The translations under genes and the position numbers were made by a program. The notes under the pieces are model-generated. The model saw only the letters and a list, made by a program, of their open reading frames with translations. It searched no databases and had not been told where the DNA came from. From Pelomonas sp. KK5 (GTDB taxonomy: Bacteria; Pseudomonadota; Gammaproteobacteria; Burkholderiales; Burkholderiaceae_C), in NCBI RefSeq assembly GCF_001984095.1, contig NZ_LYVQ01000044.1, positions 1 through 35,320 on the forward strand: a stretch of 35,320 bases of DNA. Reading direction: 5' to 3'. Positions 2,164-30,484 of the stretch are shown one piece after another. Numbering within the stretch: position 1 is the first letter of the stretch; the number at the start of each line of letters is the position of its first letter.

Positions 2164-2167
<4 letters not shown>

Positions 2168-4473
2168 ACGCCCAGCGCCTTGTTCGCCTGTTCCTGCGCC
2201 GCCACGCCCTGCGCCCGCTGCCGCTCGAACTCGCGCTCCAGCTGTTGCTTGCCCGACAGGTACTGCTTCGGCCACTCGATGCCGGTGTAGCCGATGCGCG
2301 CGGCCTCGGTCAGCGTCCAGGCCGGGTTGGCCAGGTGCGGGCGTGCCACGGCGCAGAGGTCCGCGCGGCCGGCCGCGATGATGCTGTTGACGTGGTCCGC
2401 CTCGGAGATCGCGCCGACGGCGATCGTCGCGATGCCGACGCGGTTGCGGATGTTCTCGGAGAACGGCGTCTGCCACATGCGGCCGTAGGTCGGCTTCTCC
2501 TGCTTGCTGACCTGGCCGGAGGACACGTCGATCAGGTCCGCGCCGGCCGCCTTGAAGGCCTCGGCGACGAGCACGCTGTCCTGTGGCGTGATGCCGCCGG
2601 CCACCCAGTCATGGGCCGAGATGCGCACCGACAGCGGCCCGGTCCAGATCGCACGCATCGCGGCGAACACCTCCAGCGGAAAGCGCAGCCGGTTCTCCAG
2701 CGAGCCCCCGTACTCGTCGCTGCGCTGGTTGGTCAGCGGCGAGATGAAGCTGGACAGCAGGTAGCCGTGCGCGCAGTGCAATTCCAGCCAGTCGAAGCCG
2801 GCAGCCCGCGCGCGACGGGTCGCGGCGATGAAATCGGCCTTCACGCGGTCCATGTCCTCCCGCGTCATCGCCCGCGACTGCTGGCTGATGCCTTCGAGGT
2901 ACTGCTGCTCGGAGGCCGAGATCAGCGGCCAGTTGCCCGTGTCCAGCGGCAGGTCGATGCCCTCCCAGGCCACGCGGGTCGAGCCCTTGGCGCCGGCATG
3001 ACCCAGCTGCATCGCGATCTTCGCCGTCGTGCTCGCATGCACGTAGTCGACGATGCGCTTCCAGGCCGCACCCTGCTCGTCGTTCCACAGGCCCGGGCAG
3101 CCGGGCGTGATGCGCGCATCGGGCGAGGTGCAGGTCATCTCGGCGAACACCAGGCCCGCGCCGCCCATCGCCCGCGCACCGAGGTGCATCAGGTGATGCT
3201 CGGCCGGCAGGCCGTCCACGCAGCTGTACTGCGCCATCGGCGAGACGACGACGCGATTCTTCAGCGTCAGGCCGTGCAGCGTGAAGGGCGTGAACATCGG
3301 CGGCACGGCCTTATCGCCACCGGCCAGCCAGCTCTCGAAACGCTCCACGTAGCCATGGTCGCGCAGCCGCAGGTTCTCATGCGAGATGCGCTGCGAGCGG
3401 GTCAGCAGGGAGTAGGCGAACTGCTGCGGGTCCAGCCGCGCATGACGCTCGACGTTCTCGAACCATTCGGTCGAGTTGCGGGCGGCGTTCTGGATGCGCA
3501 GCACGTCGATCGAGCGGGTGGCGACATAACGGTCCAGCGCAGCGGACAGGTCGCCCTTCTCTTCGGCGATGTCGTTCGCCAGCGCGATCGCGTCTTCCAG
3601 CGCCAGCTTGGTGCCGGAGCCGATCGAGAAGTGCGCGGTGTGCGCGGCATCGCCCATCAGCACGACCGGCGCGCGGCCGTTGTGATGGACCCAGTTGCGG
3701 CAGACCACGCGAGGGAAGCGGATCCACTGCGCCGAGCCGCGCAGGTGCGAGGCATTGGAGACGAGCTTGTGTCCGTCCAGCACACCCGCGAACAGGGTCT
3801 CGCAGAAGGCGATGCCCTCTTCCTTGCTCATGTCCGCCAGGCCGGCGGCCTGCCAGACGGCCTCGGGCGTCTCGACGATGAAGGTCGAGGTGTGCTCGTC
3901 GAAGCGGTAGGCATGGGCCTGGAACCAGCCATGCTCGGTCTTCTGGAAATCGAAGGTAAAGGCGTCGAACAGCTTCTCGGTGCCGAGCCAGACGAAGCGA
4001 CAGTTGCGCAGGTCGACGTCGGGCTGGTAGCTGGCGGCGTACTTGTTGCGGATGCGGCTGTTCAGGCCGTCGGCGGCGATGATCAGGTCGGCATCGATGT
4101 CGGCGTCGTCCTGCACGTCGGCCTCATAGACCAGCTTCACGCCCAGTTCCTCGCAGCGCGACTGCAGGATGTTCAGCAGCTTCTTGCGGCCGATACCGCA
4201 GAAGCCGTGGCCACCGGAGCGCACGCTGTGGCCGTCGATGTGGACGTCGATGTCGTCCCAGTGATTGAAGGCCTGCAGGATCTCGTCGGCGGTCTTGGGG
4301 TCGGCCTCGCGCAGCGCGCCAAGCGTCTGGTCGGAGAAGACCACGCCCCAGCCGAAGGTGTCGCCGGCGCGGTTGCGCTCCAGCACGGTGACCTCGTGCC
4401 GCGGGTCCTGCTTCTTCATCAGCAGCGCGAAGTACAGGCCGGCGGGGCCGCCGCCGATGCAGGTGATGCGCAT
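2164..4473 (-). CDS. Bifunctional 2-aminobenzoyl-CoA monooxygenase/reductase (salicylyl-CoA 5-hydroxylase family)
   Basis: A fused flavoprotein of 769 aa. Residues 1 to about 385 form an aromatic-ring hydroxylase FAD domain with GGGPAG at 7-12 and GDAAH at 274-278. Residues from about 391 to the end form an Old Yellow Enzyme-type NADH:flavin oxidoreductase domain, with [13 protein letters not shown] near the start and [11 protein letters not shown] later. Characterised relatives in Azoarcus evansii hydroxylate and then reduce the ring of 2-aminobenzoyl-CoA; salicylyl-CoA 5-hydroxylases share the architecture. The divergent kynurenine genes make anthraniloyl-CoA the more likely substrate. It is the first gene of the minus-strand operon, with Shine-Dalgarno AAGGAG at 4482-4487. 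Its stop overlaps the dehydrogenase start. The CoA ligase it needs is not visible and may lie beyond the left edge. Confidence 0.9.
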
Positions 4474-21120: not shown

Positions 21121-22080
21121 GTGAAACACCCCCTGCGCACACTCACCCTCGGCACCGCCTCCGCGGCGCTTGCCGCCCTGTTCCTGTGCAGCCCCGCCGC
21201 CGCGCAGGGCACCTCAAAACAGATCTACCTCGTTTCCCACGGCAGCGAGTCGGATCCGTTCTGGATCGAGTGGAACCGCGGCGTCAAGGCGGCCTGCGAG
21301 AAGGTGCGGGCCAGGTGCAACGTGTCCTTCAACGCGAACAACGTCGCGGGGCAGAAGGAGGCGATCAACGCAGCGATCGCGGGCAAGGCCGACGCGATCG
21401 TCACCACCAGCGCCGAGCCCAAGCTGTGGAACACGGAGGTCGCCGCCGCGAAGAAGGCCGGCATCCCGGTGATCTTCTTCAACTCGGACGACCCCGCTTC
21501 CGGCCGCTATGCCTATGTGGGCGCCAACCTGCAGGAAGCGGGCGTGATCTGGGCGCGCTACCTGGTGGACAACAAGCTGGTGAAGGCCGGCGACAGCGTG
21601 TTCCTGCCGGTCGAGGCCGCGGGCGCCACGTACCAGATCCTGGAGACGCGGGGCATCGCCAGCGTCTTCGATCCGCTGGGCATCAAGCACCAGGTGCTGG
21701 AGGTCGGCTCGGACCCGGCCAGCCTGATCGCCCGCATGACCGAATACCTCACCGCCCATCGGGACGTGAAGGCCATCATCGGCCTGGGCGACCTGGTCAC
21801 CGCCCATGCGCGCACGGCGCTGAAGAACGTCGGCGCCAAGCCGGGCCAGATCCCGGTCGTCGGCTGGGGCAACACCAGGGAAACAGCCGACGCGGTGGTG
21901 GCCGGCTATGTGCAGGCTGGCCTGTGGCAGTTCCCCTACGACCAGGGCTACCTGCCGGTGATCATGGCCGACAACCTGGCCAAGCCGCAGGGCAAGGGCT
22001 ATGACGTGGTGACCCTGGCCGTCTACGACAAGAGCACCGTGCAGGACATCCTCAAGGGGATGGCCGGCGCCAAGAAGTGA
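21121..22080 (+). CDS. Periplasmic sugar-binding protein of an FrcB-like ABC importer
   Basis: The solute-binding component of a CUT2-type (ribose/fructose-like) ABC importer, 319 aa. It has a classical signal peptide of about 28 residues ending SPAAA, then a type I periplasmic binding fold with SHGSESDPFWIEWNRGV at the start, typical of the family. Hinge segments such as VVGWGNTRETADAVVAG follow later. Translation starts with GTG at 21121, supported by GGAGA (21110-21114) six bases upstream. It is the first gene of a ten-gene operon; the permease and ATPase follow at once. The ligand cannot be named, but family members bind monosaccharides, sugar alcohols or sugar derivatives. Confidence 0.92.
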   Translation: MKHPLRTLTLGTASAALAALFLCSPAAAQGTSKQIYLVSHGSESDPFWIEWNRGVKAACEKVRARCNVSFNANNVAGQKEAINAAIAGKADAIVTTSAEPKLWNTEVAAAKKAGIPVIFFNSDDPASGRYAYVGANLQEAGVIWARYLVDNKLVKAGDSVFLPVEAAGATYQILETRGIASVFDPLGIKHQVLEVGSDPASLIARMTEYLTAHRDVKAIIGLGDLVTAHARTALKNVGAKPGQIPVVGWGNTRETADAVVAGYVQAGLWQFPYDQGYLPVIMADNLAKPQGKGYDVVTLAVYDKSTVQDILKGMAGAKK

Positions 22081-22094
22081 TCGAAGCGAACCCC

Positions 22095-23147
22095 ATGAAC
22101 ACCACCAAGCTCGCGCCGCCGGGGGCGGCAAGACCTGTCCCCCCACCCGTGCCCGCCGCCGCAAGAAAGCGCCTCGAGGTCCGCGTCCTGGCCACGCTGG
22201 CCAGGCATCGCGAACTGACGCCGCTGCTGATCCTGCTCGTGCTGTCCGCCGGGTTCACGATGCTGAACCCGAACTTCTTCTCCAGCCTCAATGTGACGAC
22301 GCTGCTCTCCATCGTGCCGGAACTGGGCATCATCGCGCTGGGCATGGCGCTGCTGCTGACGGCCGGCGAGTTCGATCTCTCCGTCGGCGCGGTGTTCGGC
22401 CTGGCGCCGATCCTGCTGCTGCTGGCCGTGCAGTTCGGCGCGCCGCTGCCGCTGGCGCTCGCCGGCGCGCTGGCGGTGTCGGTGGCGATTGGCTGCCTGA
22501 ACGGCGTGCTGGTGACCGGCCTGTCGATCACGTCCTTCCTGGTCACGCTGTCCATCCTGCTGATCGTCCGCGGGTCGGCGCTGTTCGTCACCAACGGCTT
22601 CCCGCAGCAGCCGCTGGAGGACGAGTCGCTGCTGCGCTCGCTGCTGGCCGGCAACTTCGAGCTCGCGGGCATCACGGTCAATGCGTCCCTGGTCTGGTTC
22701 GCGGGCCTCGCGGCGCTGTGCCACTACCTGCTGCGCCATGCGCGCCTGGGCAACTGGATCGTGGCGACCGGCAGCAACAGCGCGGCCGCGACGGCGCGCG
22801 GCGTGCCGACCGCGGGCGTGAAGATCGGCCTGTTCGCATTGACCTCGGCGCTCGCGGGCTTCGCCGGCATCCTCAGCGCGCTGCGCATCTCCTCGGCCTC
22901 GCCGGTGGCCGGCACCGGCTACGAGCTGGAGGTGATCGCCATGGTCGTGATCGGCGGCACGGTGCTGACCGGCGGCCAGGGCACGATCGTCGGCACCGTC
23001 ATCGGCGTGATGCTGCTGCGGATCATCCGCAACGGCATCATCATGGCCGGCGCCCCCGGGCTGGCCTACAACATCTTCGTCGGCGTGATCATCCTCGCGA
23101 TGCTGATCATCCATGCGCGCCTCGAGAAATACACCAAGCTGCGCTGA
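22095..23147 (+). CDS. Sugar ABC transporter permease (FrcC/RbsC-like)
   Basis: A 350 aa inner-membrane permease of the CUT2 branch with about nine or ten helices. Family segments include ALGMALLLTAGEFDLSVGA near residue 90 and VIGGTVLTGGQGTIVGTVIG near residue 300. The N-terminal 40 residues are Pro/Ala-rich and cytoplasmic. The ATG at 22095 was chosen; an in-frame GTG at 22077 overlaps the stop of the binding-protein gene as GTGA and would add six residues. The ATPase gene follows after 16 bases. Together with its neighbours it forms one complete importer. Confidence 0.93.
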   Translation: MNTTKLAPPGAARPVPPPVPAAARKRLEVRVLATLARHRELTPLLILLVLSAGFTMLNPNFFSSLNVTTLLSIVPELGIIALGMALLLTAGEFDLSVGAVFGLAPILLLLAVQFGAPLPLALAGALAVSVAIGCLNGVLVTGLSITSFLVTLSILLIVRGSALFVTNGFPQQPLEDESLLRSLLAGNFELAGITVNASLVWFAGLAALCHYLLRHARLGNWIVATGSNSAAATARGVPTAGVKIGLFALTSALAGFAGILSALRISSASPVAGTGYELEVIAMVVIGGTVLTGGQGTIVGTVIGVMLLRIIRNGIIMAGAPGLAYNIFVGVIILAMLIIHARLEKYTKLR

Positions 23148-23163
23148 AGGGCCACGCATCATC

Positions 23164-23940
<777 letters not shown>

Positions 23941-23956
23941 GCAGGAAGGCCCCACC

Positions 23957-25132
23957 ATGCCTCGACTGTTCGGAAGAGACTGGAGCCGGCGCGAGCTGGC
24001 CGCGCAGGCGGGCCAGCTGGGCCAGTACGCCGGAGTCCAGTTGCTGACGCTGGGCGACGGCGCCGGGCGCGGCCTGCGCTGCCTCGAGTTCCGCACCGGC
24101 ACCGGCCTCGCCTTCCGCGTGCTGGTGGACCGGGCCTTCGACATCGGCCCCTGCGAGTTCCGTGGCGCCTCGCTGGGCTGGCAGTCGCCGACCGGCCTGC
24201 GCCATCCCGGCCTGCACGAGAACGCCGACGAGGACGGCCTGGGCTGGCTGCGCTCCTTCAGCGGCCTGCACGTCACCTGCGGGCTGGACCACACGCTGGG
24301 GCCGGAGCTGGAAACCGCCGCGCACTACCACCACCCCCATCGCCAGGCGGTCCGCCAGCCGCTGCACGGCCGCATCGCCAACACGCCCGCGCGCCTGACC
24401 GGCCATGGCGAGCGCTGGGACGGCGACGAGTGCGTGCTGTGGGCCGAGGGCGAGGTCCGCCAGGCCGCGGTCTTCGGCGAGAACCTGTGCCTCTACAGGC
24501 GGGTCGAGGCCCGCGTGGGCGGCAATACCTTCTCCATCCGCGACCGGGTGGTCAACGAAGGCTTCTCCACCACGCCGCACATGCTGATGTACCACATCAA
24601 CCTGGGCCATCCGCTGCTCGACGCCGGCAGCCGCTACGTGGCGCCGGTGCGGCACACCCGGTGGGCCGCGCACGCCGGGCGCCTGCGCGAGCAGGGCGTG
24701 GGCAGCGTGACCCAGGGCGGCCCGCAGCCGGGCTTCGTCGAGCAGGTGTTCGAGCATGCGATGGCGGCCGGCCCCGACGGGCGCATTCCGATGGGCCTGG
24801 TGAACCCGGGCTTCGACGGCGGCCACGGCCTGGGTCTGGCGATCGAGGTCGATGCGCGCGAGTTCCCCTGCCACCTGCAATGGCAGAACCTGCGCAGCGG
24901 CCTCTACACGATGGCCATCGAGCCGAGCACGAACCACGCGCCGGGCAAGCAGTTCGCGCGCGAACGCGGCGAGCTGATCCAGCTGGCCGCCGGCGAGGAG
25001 CGCCGCTACGGCGTGGACTACACGGTGCTGGACGGCAGCGCCGAGATCGAGCGCTTCGAGCGCCGCATCGCCAGCCTGGCGCCGCACCCGCAGCAGGACT
25101 ATCCAACGCCCACCGGGCGATGGGACGACTGA
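23957..25132 (+). CDS. DUF4432 aldose-epimerase-like protein
   Basis: A 391 aa beta-sandwich protein of the DUF4432 group within the galactose-mutarotase-like fold. Recognition rests on the VDRAFDIGPCEFRG and HGRIANTPA segments, a mid-protein MLMYHINLGHPLLDAG and MAIEPSTNH near the end. Proteins of this fold interconvert sugar anomers or bind sugars, and several conserved His and Glu residues would suit that. Position after a sugar importer supports action on the imported sugar or its oxidised form. The catalytic role is not established for this subgroup. The stop is four bases before the desaturase-like gene, so the two are coupled. Confidence 0.8.
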   Translation: MPRLFGRDWSRRELAAQAGQLGQYAGVQLLTLGDGAGRGLRCLEFRTGTGLAFRVLVDRAFDIGPCEFRGASLGWQSPTGLRHPGLHENADEDGLGWLRSFSGLHVTCGLDHTLGPELETAAHYHHPHRQAVRQPLHGRIANTPARLTGHGERWDGDECVLWAEGEVRQAAVFGENLCLYRRVEARVGGNTFSIRDRVVNEGFSTTPHMLMYHINLGHPLLDAGSRYVAPVRHTRWAAHAGRLREQGVGSVTQGGPQPGFVEQVFEHAMAAGPDGRIPMGLVNPGFDGGHGLGLAIEVDAREFPCHLQWQNLRSGLYTMAIEPSTNHAPGKQFARERGELIQLAAGEERRYGVDYTVLDGSAEIERFERRIASLAPHPQQDYPTPTGRWDD

Positions 25133-25136
25133 GAAC

Positions 25137-26204
25137 ATGAGCCAAGTCGAGAACGAATCACCGCACGTGAGCGCGCAGGACTACGCCCTGATCGGCGGCG
25201 CCGGCGAGCGTGCGCGGGCCGCGGGCCTGGTCAACGGCGCCTGGTACCGCTGCGCCGTTCCCCGGGCCACGATGAAGGCGCTGATGCAGCGCAGCGACGG
25301 CCCCGCGATCCGCGACACGCTGCTGTGGCTGGCGCTGATCGCGGGCAGCGGCGCGCTGGCCTTCGCGCTGCGCGGCAGCGCGTGGTGCATCCCCGCCTTC
25401 ATCGTCTACGGCGCGCTGTATGGCGGCTCCGCTGATTCGCGCTGGCACGAGGCCGGGCACGGCACGGCCTTCCGCACGCGCTGGATGAACGAGGCGCTGT
25501 ACCAGCTGGCCAGCTTCATGATCTTGCGACGCCCGACGGTCTGGCGCTGGAGCCATGCGCGCCATCATTCGGACACCCTGGTCACCGGCCGCGACCCGGA
25601 GATCGCGGTGCAGCGGCCTCCGAGCGTCGCCAGGATCCTGGCGAACGTGTTCGCGCTGGAGTCCGGTCCTTCGGCGCTGCGCCAGGTGCTCGCCAACGCC
25701 TTCGGCCGCGTCGACCCGCAGGAGCGGAGCTTCATCCCGGAGAGCGAGCATCCGCGCGTGGTCCGCGAGGCGCGCGCCTGGCTGGTGGCCTATGCCGCCG
25801 TCGCCGCGTGCTGCGTCGCGACCGCTTCGCCGTGGCCGCTGATGTTCGTCGGCCTGCCTTCCTTCTACGGCGCCTGGCTCTATGTCTTCTTCGGCCTGAC
25901 CCAGCACGCCGGCCTGCCCGAGAACACGCTGGACCATCGCCTCAACTGCCGCACGATACGGATGAATCCGGTGTTCCGCTTCCTGTACTGGAACATGAAC
26001 TATCACGTCGAGCACCACATGTTCCCGATGGTTCCGTACCACGCGCTGCCCAGGCTGCATGAGGAGATGAAGCAGGACTGCCCGCCGCCCTATCCCGGCA
26101 TCCGGGCGGCCTACCGCGAGCTGGTCCCGGCCGTGCTGCGGCAGCGGACGGAACCTGCCCACCACATCGTGCGGCCCCTGCCCACCAACGATTCGAAGGC
26201 CTGA
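25137..26204 (+). CDS. Fatty-acid-desaturase-fold membrane di-iron oxygenase
   Basis: A 355 aa integral-membrane protein with the three histidine boxes of the desaturase/alkane-hydroxylase superfamily: HEAGH (104-108), HARHH (140-144) and HVEHH (290-294). These bind a non-haem di-iron centre that activates O2. Hydrophobic segments lie at about 60-95 and 215-255. Family members desaturate lipids, but others hydroxylate alkanes, xylenes or carotenoids. Here the gene is followed at three bases by its likely electron donors, a Rieske ferredoxin and a ferredoxin reductase, inside a sugar-uptake operon. A soluble or amphiphilic sugar-like substrate, hydroxylated or oxidatively demethylated, is therefore more plausible than a fatty acid. 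Fold and metal site are seen; the substrate is unknown. Confidence 0.85.
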   Translation: MSQVENESPHVSAQDYALIGGAGERARAAGLVNGAWYRCAVPRATMKALMQRSDGPAIRDTLLWLALIAGSGALAFALRGSAWCIPAFIVYGALYGGSADSRWHEAGHGTAFRTRWMNEALYQLASFMILRRPTVWRWSHARHHSDTLVTGRDPEIAVQRPPSVARILANVFALESGPSALRQVLANAFGRVDPQERSFIPESEHPRVVREARAWLVAYAAVAACCVATASPWPLMFVGLPSFYGAWLYVFFGLTQHAGLPENTLDHRLNCRTIRMNPVFRFLYWNMNYHVEHHMFPMVPYHALPRLHEEMKQDCPPPYPGIRAAYRELVPAVLRQRTEPAHHIVRPLPTNDSKA

Positions 26205-26207
26205 GAC

Positions 26208-26516
26208 ATGAGCGAATGGATTGAAGTCTGCCCGCTGGCTGCACTGGACGAGGAGGACGTGATGCGCTTCGACCACGCGGGCCGCAGCTTCGCGGTCTAC
26301 CGCATCGGCGACGAGGTGTTCGCCTCCGACGGCCTGTGCACCCATGAGCAGGTGCATCTGTGCGACGGCCTGGTGATGGACGGCGTCATCGAATGCCCCA
26401 AGCACAACGGCCGTTTCGACGTGCGTACCGGCCGGGCGCTCGGCGCGCCGGTCTGCGTCAATCTCGGGACCTATCCCGCCAAGGTCGATGGCGGCAGGAT
26501 CCTGATCCAGCCATGA
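26208..26516 (+). CDS. Rieske-type [2Fe-2S] ferredoxin
   Basis: A 102 aa single-domain Rieske ferredoxin. The cluster ligands are Cys44 and His46 in GLCTHEQVHLCDG, and Cys63 and His66 in IECPKHNGRFD. Such proteins shuttle electrons from a flavoprotein reductase to an oxygenase. It lies three bases after the desaturase-fold gene and overlaps the reductase start by four bases, so the three make a complete electron chain for one oxygenase. Rieske donors usually serve Rieske oxygenases; pairing with a membrane di-iron enzyme is less usual. Confidence 0.94.
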   Translation: MSEWIEVCPLAALDEEDVMRFDHAGRSFAVYRIGDEVFASDGLCTHEQVHLCDGLVMDGVIECPKHNGRFDVRTGRALGAPVCVNLGTYPAKVDGGRILIQP

Positions 26517-27757
26517 CCAGCAACAAGCCCATCGTGATCGTCGGCGCCGGCCAGGCGGGCGCGCGAGCCGCGCTGGCGCTGCGCGCGCAGGGCTGGAACG
26601 GGCCGGTGCTGCTGATCGGCCAGGAACCTCACGCGCCCTACGAGCGCCCGGCGCTGTCCAAGCAGGCCCTGCTCGATGCTGCCACCAGCCTGAGCTGGGT
26701 CGCGCCGGTGGAGGACTACGCCGCGCAGCGGATCGAGCTGCGGCTCGGCACCCGGGTTCTCGCGCTGGATGCGCAGGCCCGCAGCATCGAGCTGCAAGCC
26801 GGCGACGGCCCGGCCGAGCGCATCGGCTACGACCGGCTGCTGCTGGCGACCGGCGGCAGCGCCCGGCGCCTCGCGATCCCGGGTTCGGACGACGAGCGGG
26901 TGCTGTACCTGCGCGACGCGGCCGATGCCCGCCGGCTGGCAGCCCGCCTGCGGCCCGGCGCGCGACTGGCCGTGGTCGGCGGTGGCTTCATCGGGCTGGA
27001 GGTGGCCGCCTCGGCGCGCCAGCGGGGCTGCGAGGTCACCGTGCTGGAGGCCGGGACCGGCGTGCTTGGCCGCGCGGCGCCGGCCTCGCTGGCGGCGCTG
27101 GTGCAGGCGCTGCACGCGCGGCACGGGGTGAAGCTGCGGCTCGGCGACGCCCCGCTCGCCTTCGAGGGCCTGCCGGACCAGGTGCTGGTCCAGCTCGGCT
27201 CGGGCGGCCTGCTGGGCGTCGATGCGGTGCTCATGGGCGTCGGCATGATGCCCAACGTGGCGCTGGCCCGGGCGGCCGGGCTGCGGGTGAACCGCGGCAT
27301 CGTCGTGGACGAGCGGCTGCAGGCCAGCGCGCCCGGCATCTACGCCGCCGGCGACGTCTGCGAATACCCCGATGCCGATGGAGCCGGCACCGTCCTGATG
27401 GAGTCCTGGGCCAATGCCGAGGCGACGGGGAGCCATGTCGCGGCCAGCATGCTGGGCGCGGTGCTGCCCTATCGGCCGGTGCCGTGGATGTGGTCCGACC
27501 AGTACGACCATGCCTTCCAGCGGGTGGGCCGATGCGGCGCGGCCGACCGGGTCGTCACGCGCGAGATCAGCGGCGGCCGGATGGAGTTCTACCTGGGTGC
27601 CGACGGCCGGCTGGTCGGCGCCGCAGGCTTCGCGCCCGCGTCGAGCCTGGCGCGCGCCTTCCTGGTCGCTCGCAAGCTGGTCGAGGCCCGGCCGTGCCTG
27701 CCGCCCACCGGGCTGGCCGATCCGGACGTGCCGCTGAAATCCCTGCTGAACCGATGA
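26513..27757 (+). CDS. FAD-dependent ferredoxin reductase
   Basis: A 414 aa NAD(P)H:ferredoxin reductase of the type that serves dioxygenases and P450s. The FAD motif GAGQAG (11-16), the NAD motif VVGGGFIGLE (about 155-164) and the late FAD segment GIYAAGDVCEYPD are present, as is the C-terminal reductase domain with WMWSDQYD. It would pass electrons from NADH to the overlapping Rieske ferredoxin gene's product and on to the di-iron oxygenase. ATGA overlaps join it to the ferredoxin before and the LacI gene after it. Confidence 0.93.
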   Translation: MTSNKPIVIVGAGQAGARAALALRAQGWNGPVLLIGQEPHAPYERPALSKQALLDAATSLSWVAPVEDYAAQRIELRLGTRVLALDAQARSIELQAGDGPAERIGYDRLLLATGGSARRLAIPGSDDERVLYLRDAADARRLAARLRPGARLAVVGGGFIGLEVAASARQRGCEVTVLEAGTGVLGRAAPASLAALVQALHARHGVKLRLGDAPLAFEGLPDQVLVQLGSGGLLGVDAVLMGVGMMPNVALARAAGLRVNRGIVVDERLQASAPGIYAAGDVCEYPDADGAGTVLMESWANAEATGSHVAASMLGAVLPYRPVPWMWSDQYDHAFQRVGRCGAADRVVTREISGGRMEFYLGADGRLVGAAGFAPASSLARAFLVARKLVEARPCLPPTGLADPDVPLKSLLNR

Positions 27758-28818
27758 AGAAGCTCGCCTCATCCGTCGTCGTGCCCCTGCCCACCGGCCG
27801 TGCCACGCTGGCCGACGTGGCCGCCCAGGCCGGCGTGTCGCTGGCCACGGCGGACCGGGTCATCCACGAACGCAAGGGCGTGCGCGACGCGGTGCGCCAG
27901 CGGGTGCTGGGCGCCGCCGCCCGCCTCGAGTACCTGCCCGCACCCACGCTGGAGACGATGCTGCGGCCGCCGCCGCTGCGCCTGACCCTGCTGCTGCCCA
28001 AGGGGTCCAACCGCTTCATGAACCTGCTGGCGGACTATGCCGAACGGGCCGAGGAGCAGTGGAGCCCGTACAACGTCCAGTGCAAGGTCCGCTGGATCGA
28101 GGCCTTCGACCCGGAGCGGCTGGCCAAGGCCCTGAACGGCCAGGCGCGCAAGGCCGATGGCGTCGCCTTCATCGCCCTTGAGCATCCGCTGGTCAGGGAG
28201 GCCGCGAACCGCCTGGTCGATGCGGGCATGCCCGTCATCACGCTGGCTTCCGACCTCTCCAACAGCAAGCGCACCGCCTACATCGGCCTGGACAACTACG
28301 CCGCCGGCCGCACCGCCGGCCTGGTGATGGGCCGCTGGTGCGAACGCGCCGGCGGCAAGGTCGCGATGATCTGCGGCAGCCTCAGCTACCGCGGCCACGG
28401 CGAGCGCGAGATGGGCTTCCAGCACATGCTGCAGGAGAGCTTCCCGAACCTGCTGGTCACCGGCGTGCGGGAGGCCCACGACGATCCCCAGCACACCTAC
28501 CAGGCGATGCGCGAACTGGTGGCGCAGCACCGCAACCTGGTCGGCGTCTACAACGTTGGCGGCGGCTCGGACGGCGTGGGCCGCGCGCTGCGCGAAGCGG
28601 GCCTGGCCGGCAAGGTGAGCTTCATCGGCCACGAGCTGACGCCCGAGACCCGCGGCTTCCTGATCGACGGAACCATGGCCGCCGTGATCCACCAGAACCC
28701 GCAGCTCGAAGTGATGAACTGCGTGCGCATCCTGGCCAATGTGCGCGGCGGCAAGAAACCGCAGGAGGGCATCGAGCCGCTGCGCATCGCGTTGATCCTG
28801 CGCGAGAACCTGCCCTAG
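27754..28818 (+). CDS. LacI-family transcriptional regulator
   Basis: A 354 aa LacI-type repressor. The N-terminal helix-turn-helix and hinge helix span about residues 17-65 (ATLADVAAQAGVSLATADRV). A sugar-binding type I periplasmic-like domain follows, with VISLASD-type and GHELTPETRGFL segments. It is encoded in the middle of the operon, sharing its ATG with the reductase stop, so it is probably autoregulated with the whole unit and released by the imported sugar or an intermediate. The candidate operator is upstream of the first gene. This regulator marks the operon as inducible by a sugar-like ligand. Confidence 0.93.
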   Translation: MKKLASSVVVPLPTGRATLADVAAQAGVSLATADRVIHERKGVRDAVRQRVLGAAARLEYLPAPTLETMLRPPPLRLTLLLPKGSNRFMNLLADYAERAEEQWSPYNVQCKVRWIEAFDPERLAKALNGQARKADGVAFIALEHPLVREAANRLVDAGMPVITLASDLSNSKRTAYIGLDNYAAGRTAGLVMGRWCERAGGKVAMICGSLSYRGHGEREMGFQHMLQESFPNLLVTGVREAHDDPQHTYQAMRELVAQHRNLVGVYNVGGGSDGVGRALREAGLAGKVSFIGHELTPETRGFLIDGTMAAVIHQNPQLEVMNCVRILANVRGGKKPQEGIEPLRIALILRENLP

Positions 28819-28829
28819 GAAGACAAGCG

Positions 28830-29792
28830 ATGAATGCATTCCAGCCGCGGCCCTTCGGCCACAGCGGCCTCCTGGTCTCGTCCCTGGCCTACGGTGCGAT
28901 GAGCATCACGGCCGATCCCGGCATCGCCGCCGGCGTCGCCCCGTCGCTGCTGCGGGCGCTGGAGCGCGGCGTGAACCTGATCGACACGGCGCGGATCTAC
29001 CCAGGTTCCGAAGCGCTCGTGCGCAGCAGCCTGGCGGCCTGGCGCGGCCCGCGGCCGCTGATCTCGACCAAGCTCCAGACCCGCTGCCTGGACGCCTGGC
29101 GCTTCCCGCACCCCCTGCACGAGGCCTACACGCCGGCATCGATCCGCCAGTCGGTCGACGAGAGCCTGGCCGCCCTCGGCGTGGAGACGCTGGACATCGT
29201 CCACCTGCACCAGTGGCACTACGGCTGGACCCACGAGCCGGACTGGCTGGAAACGCTGCAGGCGCTGCGCCGCGAGGGCAAGCTGCGCTGCATCGCCGTC
29301 AGCGCGCAGGACCACGAGCACGACGCCCTGCTGGAGCTGGTCAGCCGCCGGATGGTGGACGGCATCCAGCTGATCGTGAACCTGTTCGAGTCCCGCCCGC
29401 TGAACGCGGTGCTGCCGCTCGCCGAGGCGCGCGGCGTCGGCGTCATCGGCCGCTGCGTGATGGATTCGGGCGGCCTCGCCGGCGGCCTGGGCCGGGAGGA
29501 CTTCGCGGCACGCCGCTTCCTGCAGCATGCGCCCTACGACGAATACCGCCGGCGACTCGACCGGATGGAAGCCGCGCTGTGCCCGCAGCACGCGGGCAGC
29601 CTCGCCGAACTGGCGCTGCGCTTCGCCGCCTTTGCGCCCGGCGTCAGCTCGATCACCCTCGGCACCTCGACGGCCGCCTGGGTGGACCAGGCCCTCGCGG
29701 TCCTCGACAAGGGGCCGCTGGCGCAGGAGGCCGTCAGGCTCATTGCACGCGAGCACGTCTGGAGCAAGAACTTCTACGAGGAGCTGCTGTGA
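28830..29792 (+). CDS. Aldo/keto reductase
   Basis: A 320 aa NAD(P)H-dependent oxidoreductase of the aldo/keto reductase superfamily. The catalytic tetrad is Asp52, Tyr57, Lys81 and His127 in LIDTARIY, LISTK and DIVHLHQWH. The start has AGGAAG shortly before it. It could oxidise an aldose or reduce an aldehyde or ketose made by the oxygenase; sugar dehydrogenases occur in this family. Its stop overlaps the GTG start of the deacetylase-like gene (GTGA). Within the operon it is the only obvious carbonyl-handling enzyme. Confidence 0.92.
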   Translation: MNAFQPRPFGHSGLLVSSLAYGAMSITADPGIAAGVAPSLLRALERGVNLIDTARIYPGSEALVRSSLAAWRGPRPLISTKLQTRCLDAWRFPHPLHEAYTPASIRQSVDESLAALGVETLDIVHLHQWHYGWTHEPDWLETLQALRREGKLRCIAVSAQDHEHDALLELVSRRMVDGIQLIVNLFESRPLNAVLPLAEARGVGVIGRCVMDSGGLAGGLGREDFAARRFLQHAPYDEYRRRLDRMEAALCPQHAGSLAELALRFAAFAPGVSSITLGTSTAAWVDQALAVLDKGPLAQEAVRLIAREHVWSKNFYEELL

Positions 29793-30484
29793 CGAGCAAG
29801 CAGGTGAGCTTCTGCTTCGACGACGGCTTCCGGCGCAGCGCCGAGACCGTCTGCCAGGTGTTCGAGCAGCGCGGTCTGAAGGCCTGCTTCGCCATCCTGG
29901 CGGATCCCGGGCACGCGCTGGACCCCTTCGTGCGCGGCGCCGATCTGGGCGACTGGGCCTTCTGGCGGCAGGTCATGGCGGCGGGCCACGAGCTCGGCTC
30001 GCATGGCCTGATGCACGAGCGCTATGACGAGCTGGGCATCGAGGCCGCCCGGGCCAGCGTGCTGCGCGCGCTGGCGGCGATGGAGGCCCGGCTGCCCGGC
30101 TTCCGGCGGCGCGACGCCGTATTCCATGTGCCCTACCTGAGCGCACCCGACGAACTGGTCCGCTGGCTGGGCGAGGACCAATCGCTCGCGGTCCGGCTGG
30201 GGCCGGCGGCCGCGGGCTTCAATCGCTGGTCGGAGCTGCGGCGGGGCGCCGTCATCAACTGCGTCTGCTTCGGCCCCGAGGGCGTGGGCGAGTCGCTCGC
30301 CGCCCGGCTGCAGCAGTTCAGCCAGCAGGCGGAAGACGGCTGGCTGGTCCTGGTCCTGCATGGCGTGGACGGCGAAGGCTGGGGGCCGGTGACGCGGGCC
30401 CAGTTGGAGCGCCTGCTCGACGATGCGCTGGCGGCCGGCATCACCGTGGCCACGCCGAATGCCACGCTGGCGGCGTTCCTGTGA
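29789..30484 (+). CDS. NodB-fold (CE4) polysaccharide-deacetylase-like protein, cytosolic
   Basis: A 231 aa protein of the carbohydrate-esterase-4 (NodB homology) fold. Motif 1 reads CFDDG with Asp11 and Asp12, motif 2 is SHGLMH with His72 and His76, and a late LVLHG resembles motif 5. These residues would bind a metal and remove an acyl group or split an amide. Unlike cell-wall deacetylases it has no signal peptide, so it probably acts on a small cytosolic molecule, fitting the catabolic operon. It starts with GTG overlapping the aldo/keto reductase stop. It is the last gene of the ten-gene unit and ends four bases from a convergent gene. Confidence 0.82.
   Translation: MTSKQVSFCFDDGFRRSAETVCQVFEQRGLKACFAILADPGHALDPFVRGADLGDWAFWRQVMAAGHELGSHGLMHERYDELGIEAARASVLRALAAMEARLPGFRRRDAVFHVPYLSAPDELVRWLGEDQSLAVRLGPAAAGFNRWSELRRGAVINCVCFGPEGVGESLAARLQQFSQQAEDGWLVLVLHGVDGEGWGPVTRAQLERLLDDALAAGITVATPNATLAAFL

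Follow-up and report, generated by a model that had tools for sequence, protein, structure and literature searches.

A MocDEF-type oxygenase, Rieske ferredoxin and reductase in a probable O-methyl sugar catabolic operon of Pelomonas sp. KK5

The window analysed here, a 35,320-nucleotide stretch of Pelomonas sp. KK5 (contig NZ_LYVQ01000044.1), carries at positions 25137-27757 three consecutive genes for a membrane di-iron oxygenase, a Rieske [2Fe-2S] ferredoxin and a flavin adenine dinucleotide (FAD) ferredoxin reductase, hereafter D, E and F. Judged by sequence comparison, the trio is a member of the MocDEF family, which has long been known and little studied, and relatives of D are paired with the ferredoxin, in some cases by natural fusion into a single protein. 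The three genes are part of a longer run, which begins upstream at 21121 and continues downstream to 30484. We consider it fairly probable that this run is an operon for the catabolism of an O-methylated sugar or of a polyol resembling a sugar, in which D would act by oxidative O-demethylation.

Oxygenase-ferredoxin pairing and family identity

The initial annotation placed D, E and F next to each other with a 3-base gap followed by a 4-base overlap, and this arrangement was confirmed, together with the histidine boxes of D (HEAGH at residue 104, HARHH at 140 and HVEHH at 290) and the C44/H46 and C63/H66 pairs of the ferredoxin. It also paired the Rieske protein with the membrane di-iron enzyme, and the relatives of D bear this out. 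A scan of genome contigs yielded at least 591 relatives, the best 80 of which were kept as relative loci. E was located within 1.5 kb of D, on either strand, in 64 of these 80 loci and was fused to D in 11 more (L041, L044, L054, L058, L062, L069, L071, L073, L076, L079 and L081), giving a total of 75/80. The fusions come from Verrucomicrobiota and Acidobacteriota, and each is a single open reading frame of 764-816 aa with the desaturase and Rieske motifs. Pfam searches with three of the 11 identified FA_desaturase, Rieske and NAD_binding_1 domains, with a weak FAD_binding_6 match in two, and the ten other fusions are 68-82% identical to L041. The reductase domain of the fusions belongs to a family other than that of the window MocF, so the reductase looks exchangeable, with the oxygenase-Rieske pair retained. 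Around D in the 80 loci, a window-type reductase was found within 3 kb in 35, a LacI regulator within 4 kb in 46 and transporter genes within 8 kb in 32. We found no report of a three-domain fusion of this kind, or of a DUF4432-MocD operon, in the open-licence literature searched, no search having been aimed at the fusion itself.

In genomes drawn from the family, order and phylum of the window, D was present (E <= 1e-60, own genome counted) in 8/399, 8/399 and 28/398 genomes, respectively. All 39 places of D in the order and phylum draws, other than that of the window itself, were compared with control windows; these drawn loci come from 32 genomes, which include many close relatives, and the 40 controls were placed by hand in 23 of the drawn genomes, a gene being counted at 100 bits or more. 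The ferredoxin was present in 34/39 drawn loci and 0/40 controls, and all 34 copies were within 1.5 kb of D on the same strand. The pairing of D with a Rieske ferredoxin, as opposed to chance adjacency, is strongly supported.

A second membrane di-iron family (PF04116, FA_hydroxylase/sterol desaturase) may also use Rieske donors. In one locus (L126:3329-5889), a PF04116 gene heads a second operon that also encodes a Rieske ferredoxin and a MocF-like reductase of its own, in addition to an ordinary D-E-F set in that locus, and in another (L005:7897-8907) a gene for a PF04116 protein lies directly before MocD.

The assignment to the MocDEF family is based on curated models and on named homologues. 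The window ferredoxin scored 151.1 bits against the NCBIfam MocE model (TIGR02377), above the curated cut-off of 136.15. In the other loci, E was identified by phmmer with the window ferredoxin as query; three of these ferredoxins were also scored against TIGR02377, and two exceeded the cut-off, whereas a fragment (111.2 bits) fell under it. The window proteins are 53, 70 and 41% identical to the products of mocD, mocEa and mocFa, respectively, from plasmid pA of Rhizobium etli CIAT 652, these R. etli genes standing in the comparison in place of the L5-30 sequences of Sinorhizobium meliloti. The depositors named mocD a "hydrocarbon oxigenase" and mocEa a "ferredoxin of the Rieseke type", and the LacI protein of the window is 33% identical to the regulator that is divergent from R. 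etli mocD. It had been stated initially that Rieske donors normally feed Rieske oxygenases or P450s; this premise is too strict, given T4moC, a Rieske ferredoxin that serves a soluble di-iron monooxygenase. The title of Bahar et al. 1998, as cited in PMC10107442, PMC5132102 and PMC5789663, calls MocDEF a "ferredoxin oxygenase complex", and the same three papers present mocDEF as rhizopine-catabolic genes. MocD is said in PMC2593844 to convert 3-O-methyl-scyllo-inosamine (3-O-MSI) to scyllo-inosamine (SI), and PMC5132102 calls the function of mocDEF in Pseudomonas syringae unclear. Thus, a Rieske-fed oxygenase of the MocD kind had already been proposed, and the idea that the window trio, whose ferredoxin passes the curated MocE model, would be a new find is not supported.

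The proposal that D defines a distinct oxygenase subfamily holds as far as the phylogeny is concerned, but the subfamily is that of MocD/MocE/MocF and is not new. In a tree of 101 rows, a MocD clade of 91 rows was separated (support 99/95) from the ten other FA_desaturase rows (nine references and L010), with a long-branch warning at the join between the two. The reference set comprised one curated DesA (L147, over its cut-off) and other members labelled from weak matches or motifs, and it included no named AlkB or XylM (xylM was not found in the two pWW0 stretches searched). The window D lies within a Burkholderiales clade of 30 rows (support 100/94). Seven phyla are represented in the tree (Pseudomonadota, Verrucomicrobiota, Acidobacteriota, Kiritimatiellota, Cyanobacteriota, Bacillota and Actinomycetota), several of them by metagenome bins only, and a search of plasmids for D matched 282/72,556 records, including 147 from Rhizobium and 85 from Sinorhizobium. 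The scores of D against the NCBIfam models for the lipid desaturase DesB (39 bits, cut-off 500), the arginine hydroxylase GntB (33.4, cut-off 380) and the carotene hydroxylase CrtR (22.1, cut-off 475) were all far under the cut-offs, and no DesA model was among the NCBIfam matches listed. A lipid desaturase or carotenoid hydroxylase was rejected on these scores and on the tree. The window D was aligned with 42 rows selected among the 80 relatives, and the histidines of the boxes (eight in all), as well as H257, H267 and H308, were invariant in 43/43 rows.

Some genomes carry several copies of MocD. Three loci from the family of the window (L122, L123 and L124, from genomes G310, G369 and G242) have two MocD paralogues each, every paralogue being accompanied by a LacI regulator. 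A third copy lies elsewhere in G369, and a further genome (G039) has three copies on separate contigs.

The predicted structure of the window D (positions 25137-26201) has a predicted local distance difference test (pLDDT) score of 88.5 and a predicted template modelling (pTM) score of 0.86. It matched the alkane monooxygenase FtAlkB-AlkG (8f6t) with a Z of 10.8 over 264 residues at 4.6 A, and 8sbb with a Z of 10.4. A Z near 10 is not strong for helical proteins, so the fold assignment is carried by the histidine boxes and Pfam; the three boxes and the model agree with a membrane di-iron (FA_desaturase) fold for D. The best structural matches were subunits of the Orf2971-FtsHi (Z 19.1) and Ycf2-FtsHi (Z 18.5) complexes, and subunits of these two Chlamydomonas complexes were also the two Foldseek matches at E <= 0.001, which suggests that these motor complexes may contain a desaturase-like subunit. 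Neither SCD1 nor another solved desaturase was among the structural matches listed, and a profile search of PDB sequences with D gave three matches (E 0.15-0.53), none of which is, judged by its name, related to D.

The gene run around D and its recurrence

The run 21121-30484 consists of closely spaced genes (intergenic spacing of -4 to +16 bases), and they would probably be co-transcribed. Coordinates refer to the whole window and all genes of the run are on the plus strand, with start codons that we chose ourselves:

21121..22080, plus strand, substrate-binding protein (SBP) of an ATP-binding cassette (ABC) transporter, Peripla_BP_4 (Pfam, 162.6 bits)
22095..23147, plus strand, sugar ABC transporter permease, BPD_transp_2 (Pfam, 134.4 bits)
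23164..23940, plus strand, ABC transporter ATP-binding protein, assigned from its translation, with GDNGAGKST (a Walker A motif), and from identity to the ATPases of L231, L235 and L239
23957..25132, plus strand, DUF4432 protein, aldose-1-epimerase-like (PF14486, 296 bits)
25137..26204, plus strand, MocD-type membrane di-iron oxygenase (D), FA_desaturase fold, 355 aa (Pfam, 145.1 bits, cut-off 29.7)
26208..26516, plus strand, MocE-type Rieske [2Fe-2S] ferredoxin (E), 102 aa (Pfam Rieske, 60.9 bits, cut-off 20.3)
26513..27757, plus strand, MocF-type FAD ferredoxin reductase (F), Pyr_redox_2 (226 bits) and Reductase_C (59.7 bits)
27754..28818, plus strand, LacI-family regulator with a sugar-binding domain, LacI and Peripla_BP_4 (Pfam)
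28830..29792, plus strand, aldo/keto reductase, candidate aldose dehydrogenase (PF00248, 125.9 bits)
29789..30484, plus strand, polysaccharide-deacetylase-family protein (PF01522, 40.4 bits), last gene of the run

The DUF4432 gene ends 4 bases before the start of D, and its product has a solved relative, 3ty1, described as a "hypothetical aldose 1-epimerase" (E 4.1e-28). The open reading frame of the reductase extends further upstream; the ATG at 26513 gives a protein of 414 aa ending at 27757, and the LacI gene overlaps it by 4 bases. The seven solved relatives of the aldo/keto reductase include L-galactose dehydrogenases, though not as the top match. An Rfam scan of the window gave no match at gathering scores.

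The order SBP-permease-ATPase-DUF4432-D-E is identical in the window and in three other loci, L231, L235 and L239, whose transporter genes are the nearest to those of the window among the loci compared (SBP 53-56%, permease 58-62% and ATPase 60-61% identity). These loci differ from the window by upstream MocA-like and TIM-barrel genes, by a downstream PanB-like gene, to which L231 adds purU, and by the lack of F in the stretch. In a further tree of D, their proteins sit apart from the window D, on a rhizobial branch, and given this position we take the three loci to be probably alphaproteobacterial. A fourth locus (L234) has DUF4432-D-E without the window-type transporter. DUF4432 also adjoins D in Gemmobacter (L135) and is separated from it by two genes in Acidisoma (L045). 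In all, DUF4432 occurs with D in this way at four separate places in that tree, with the L231 group and L135 inside one rhizobial group of 32 rows. Nine plasmid relatives of the SBP were found (42-46% identity), and in three of the five examined (L011, L287 and L288) D-E-PanB lies directly before the SBP. Seven plasmid regions around relatives of DUF4432 include that of L135, with D, and that of a Variovorax plasmid, without D (L131:2626-5119). The latter is a DUF4432/MocA/TIM-barrel sugar operon, its DUF4432 protein 66% identical to that of the window, which contains two annotated genes that overlap, one for a Rieske protein and the other for a VanA_C-NAD_binding-Fer2 protein; this VanA-type system is perhaps an O-demethylase that stands in for MocDEF.

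Sugar- and inositol-related genes are frequent around D in the drawn loci and were absent from the 40 control windows: LacI in 29/39, a window-type permease or SBP in 7/39, iolG in 13/39, any MocA, TIM-barrel or iol gene in 30/39, and a PanB-like gene (ketopantoate-hydroxymethyltransferase family, methylene-tetrahydrofolate-using) in 14/39. In the 80 relative loci, for which the counts are uncontrolled, inositol, MocA or TIM-barrel genes occur within 8 kb of D in 44, and PanB-like, PurU or FolD within 6 kb in nine.

A one-carbon tetrahydrofolate kit (PanB-like, purU, folD) stands beside MocDEF at L009:11724-14337, where purU and folD are in one run with DEF, at L231:6962-8637 and at L004:11687-12502. 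Such neighbours fit the disposal of formaldehyde or methylene-tetrahydrofolate. For the formaldehyde dehydrogenase FrmA, the search near D gave two weak matches (46 and 68 bits), under the 100-bit threshold.

Elsewhere in the window, a gene on the minus strand (2164-4473) encodes a fusion of FAD_binding_3 (FAD monooxygenase) and Oxidored_FMN (old-yellow-enzyme) domains, presumably similar to 2-aminobenzoyl-CoA monooxygenase/reductase. It lies near genes that, judged from their translations, appear to be for tryptophan/kynurenine degradation.

Proposed function and alternatives

In the proposed pathway, the ABC transporter would import an O-methyl sugar or polyol and the LacI protein would sense it. 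Electrons would pass from NAD(P)H to the FAD reductase, and from there to the Rieske ferredoxin, which would deliver them singly to the di-iron site of the MocD-type enzyme. This enzyme would activate O2 and hydroxylate the O-methyl carbon, and the resulting hemiacetal would break down to formaldehyde and a free hydroxyl. The mutarotase-like DUF4432 protein and the aldo/keto reductase would then process the demethylated reducing sugar.

Several observations weigh against this proposal. No assay of a purified MocD was found in the passages of the literature searched, and the demethylation attributed to MocD goes back, in the portions of papers that cite it, to genetics and modelling. D lacks a nearby or fused E in 5/80 relative loci (L045, L049, L052, L066 and L090) and in 5/39 drawn loci, and the model of a fusion protein (pTM 0.51) is too weak to show an interface. 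DUF4432 was found in 4/39 drawn loci and 0/40 controls (p 0.055, a value that ignores kinship), all four from one genus. PurU (1/39 and 0/40) and FolD (0/39 and 0/40) are not enriched alone. In the window itself, phmmer with the same queries detected no MocA-like, TIM-barrel, PurU, FolD or PanB-like gene. Furthermore, no D occurs within 9 kb of two of the five plasmid relatives of the SBP examined (L285 and L286), and no oxygenase was listed in five of the seven DUF4432 plasmid regions (L132, L133, L134, L136 and L137). Since DUF4432 and SBP regions thus occur with D, with a VanA-type system or with no oxygenase, the oxygenase looks like an add-on that would allow a sugar pathway to take a methylated substrate.

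The alternative that survives best, although we consider it unlikely, is that D, in the manner of the original Moc system, demethylates a rhizopine or a methyl-inositol such as pinitol or ononitol, the product entering an inositol pathway elsewhere in the genome, with the DUF4432 protein and the aldo/keto reductase incidental or for a second substrate. Many of the closest relatives of D adjoin iolG, TIM-barrel and MocA-like genes, and the host genome carries, on another contig, IolE- and IolG-like genes together with a relative of IolD (48% identity), which leaves room for a methyl-inositol substrate. The best NCBIfam model for the SBP is that of the rhizopine SBP (equivalog NF052284); however, the score of 90.3 bits fails the cut-off of 420, and none of six tested SBPs from beside D reached it (best 123.9). 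The MocDEF system of rhizopine catabolism in S. meliloti L5-30 and Rhizobium leguminosarum shares its three components and their order with the window, whereas the window has its own sugar ABC transporter, DUF4432 protein and aldo/keto reductase, and a LacI regulator instead of MocR. With the queries used, a search confined to the window detected none of the MocA-like and MocC-type (TIM-barrel) genes of the rhizopine operon, so that the operon contains no inositol-type gene by this test. In contrast, DUF4432 and D are 4 bases apart and are found together again in separate lineages.

It is improbable that D hydroxylates or desaturates a target other than an O-methyl group (lipid, carotenoid, alkane or aromatic), the sugar genes being there by chance. 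The Pfam family of D is FA_desaturase, its model has the AlkB matches noted above (Z 10.4-10.8), and aromatic substrates are raised as an alternative for P. syringae in PMC5132102. However, D scores far under the cut-offs of the DesB, CrtR and GntB models, no DesA model was among the matches listed, D falls in a separate clade, and the sugar or inositol genes found near D in 30/39 drawn loci were in none of the 40 controls. Finally, the possibility that E and F work for another oxygenase and merely adjoin D, for which the loci without a nearby E and the second E-F pair of L126, with its PF04116 hydroxylase, could be cited, is rejected as very improbable on the fusion proteins and the 75/80 loci in which E is fused or near, the fusions contradicting what the initial annotation had named as a refuting case.

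Known demethylases and implications

The nearest analogue by reaction to the proposed O-demethylation is the 6-O-methyl-D-galactose demethylase, which is a cytochrome P450 working with redox partners and not a membrane di-iron enzyme. In marine bacteria, this enzyme is described as oxidising the methoxy sugar to the sugar and formaldehyde (PMC10033563). The AlkB-AlkG alkane monooxygenase has a related fold and was solved as a complex of the two proteins. It differs from the window system in its donor, the redox partner AlkG, which is a rubredoxin and not a Rieske protein, and in its alkane substrate. VanA-type Rieske O-demethylases likely carry out the same reaction as that proposed for D, and a VanA_C protein stands where MocDEF might be in the Variovorax DUF4432 operon, but the VanA type is a mononuclear iron oxygenase unrelated to MocD.

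We tentatively suggest that the window represents a second, so far undescribed MocD branch, demethylating reducing methyl sugars and not inositols, and that several lineages independently added MocD to the sugar transporter-DUF4432 cassette, another lineage having added a VanA-type system. If so, the Rieske-fed desaturase fold, sometimes fused with its Rieske and reductase domains, would serve many phyla as a general demethylase of sugar ethers. In plants and cell walls, sugars and inositols commonly occur as methyl ethers, and we know of few bacterial enzymes that open these. If the proposal is correct, a single widespread family would remove the methyl groups of sugars and inositols by means of a Rieske ferredoxin and a membrane enzyme akin to the desaturases. 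The proteins that join desaturase, Rieske and reductase in a single chain would make it simple to approach by experiment a donor-enzyme pairing otherwise described from gene clusters and genetics.

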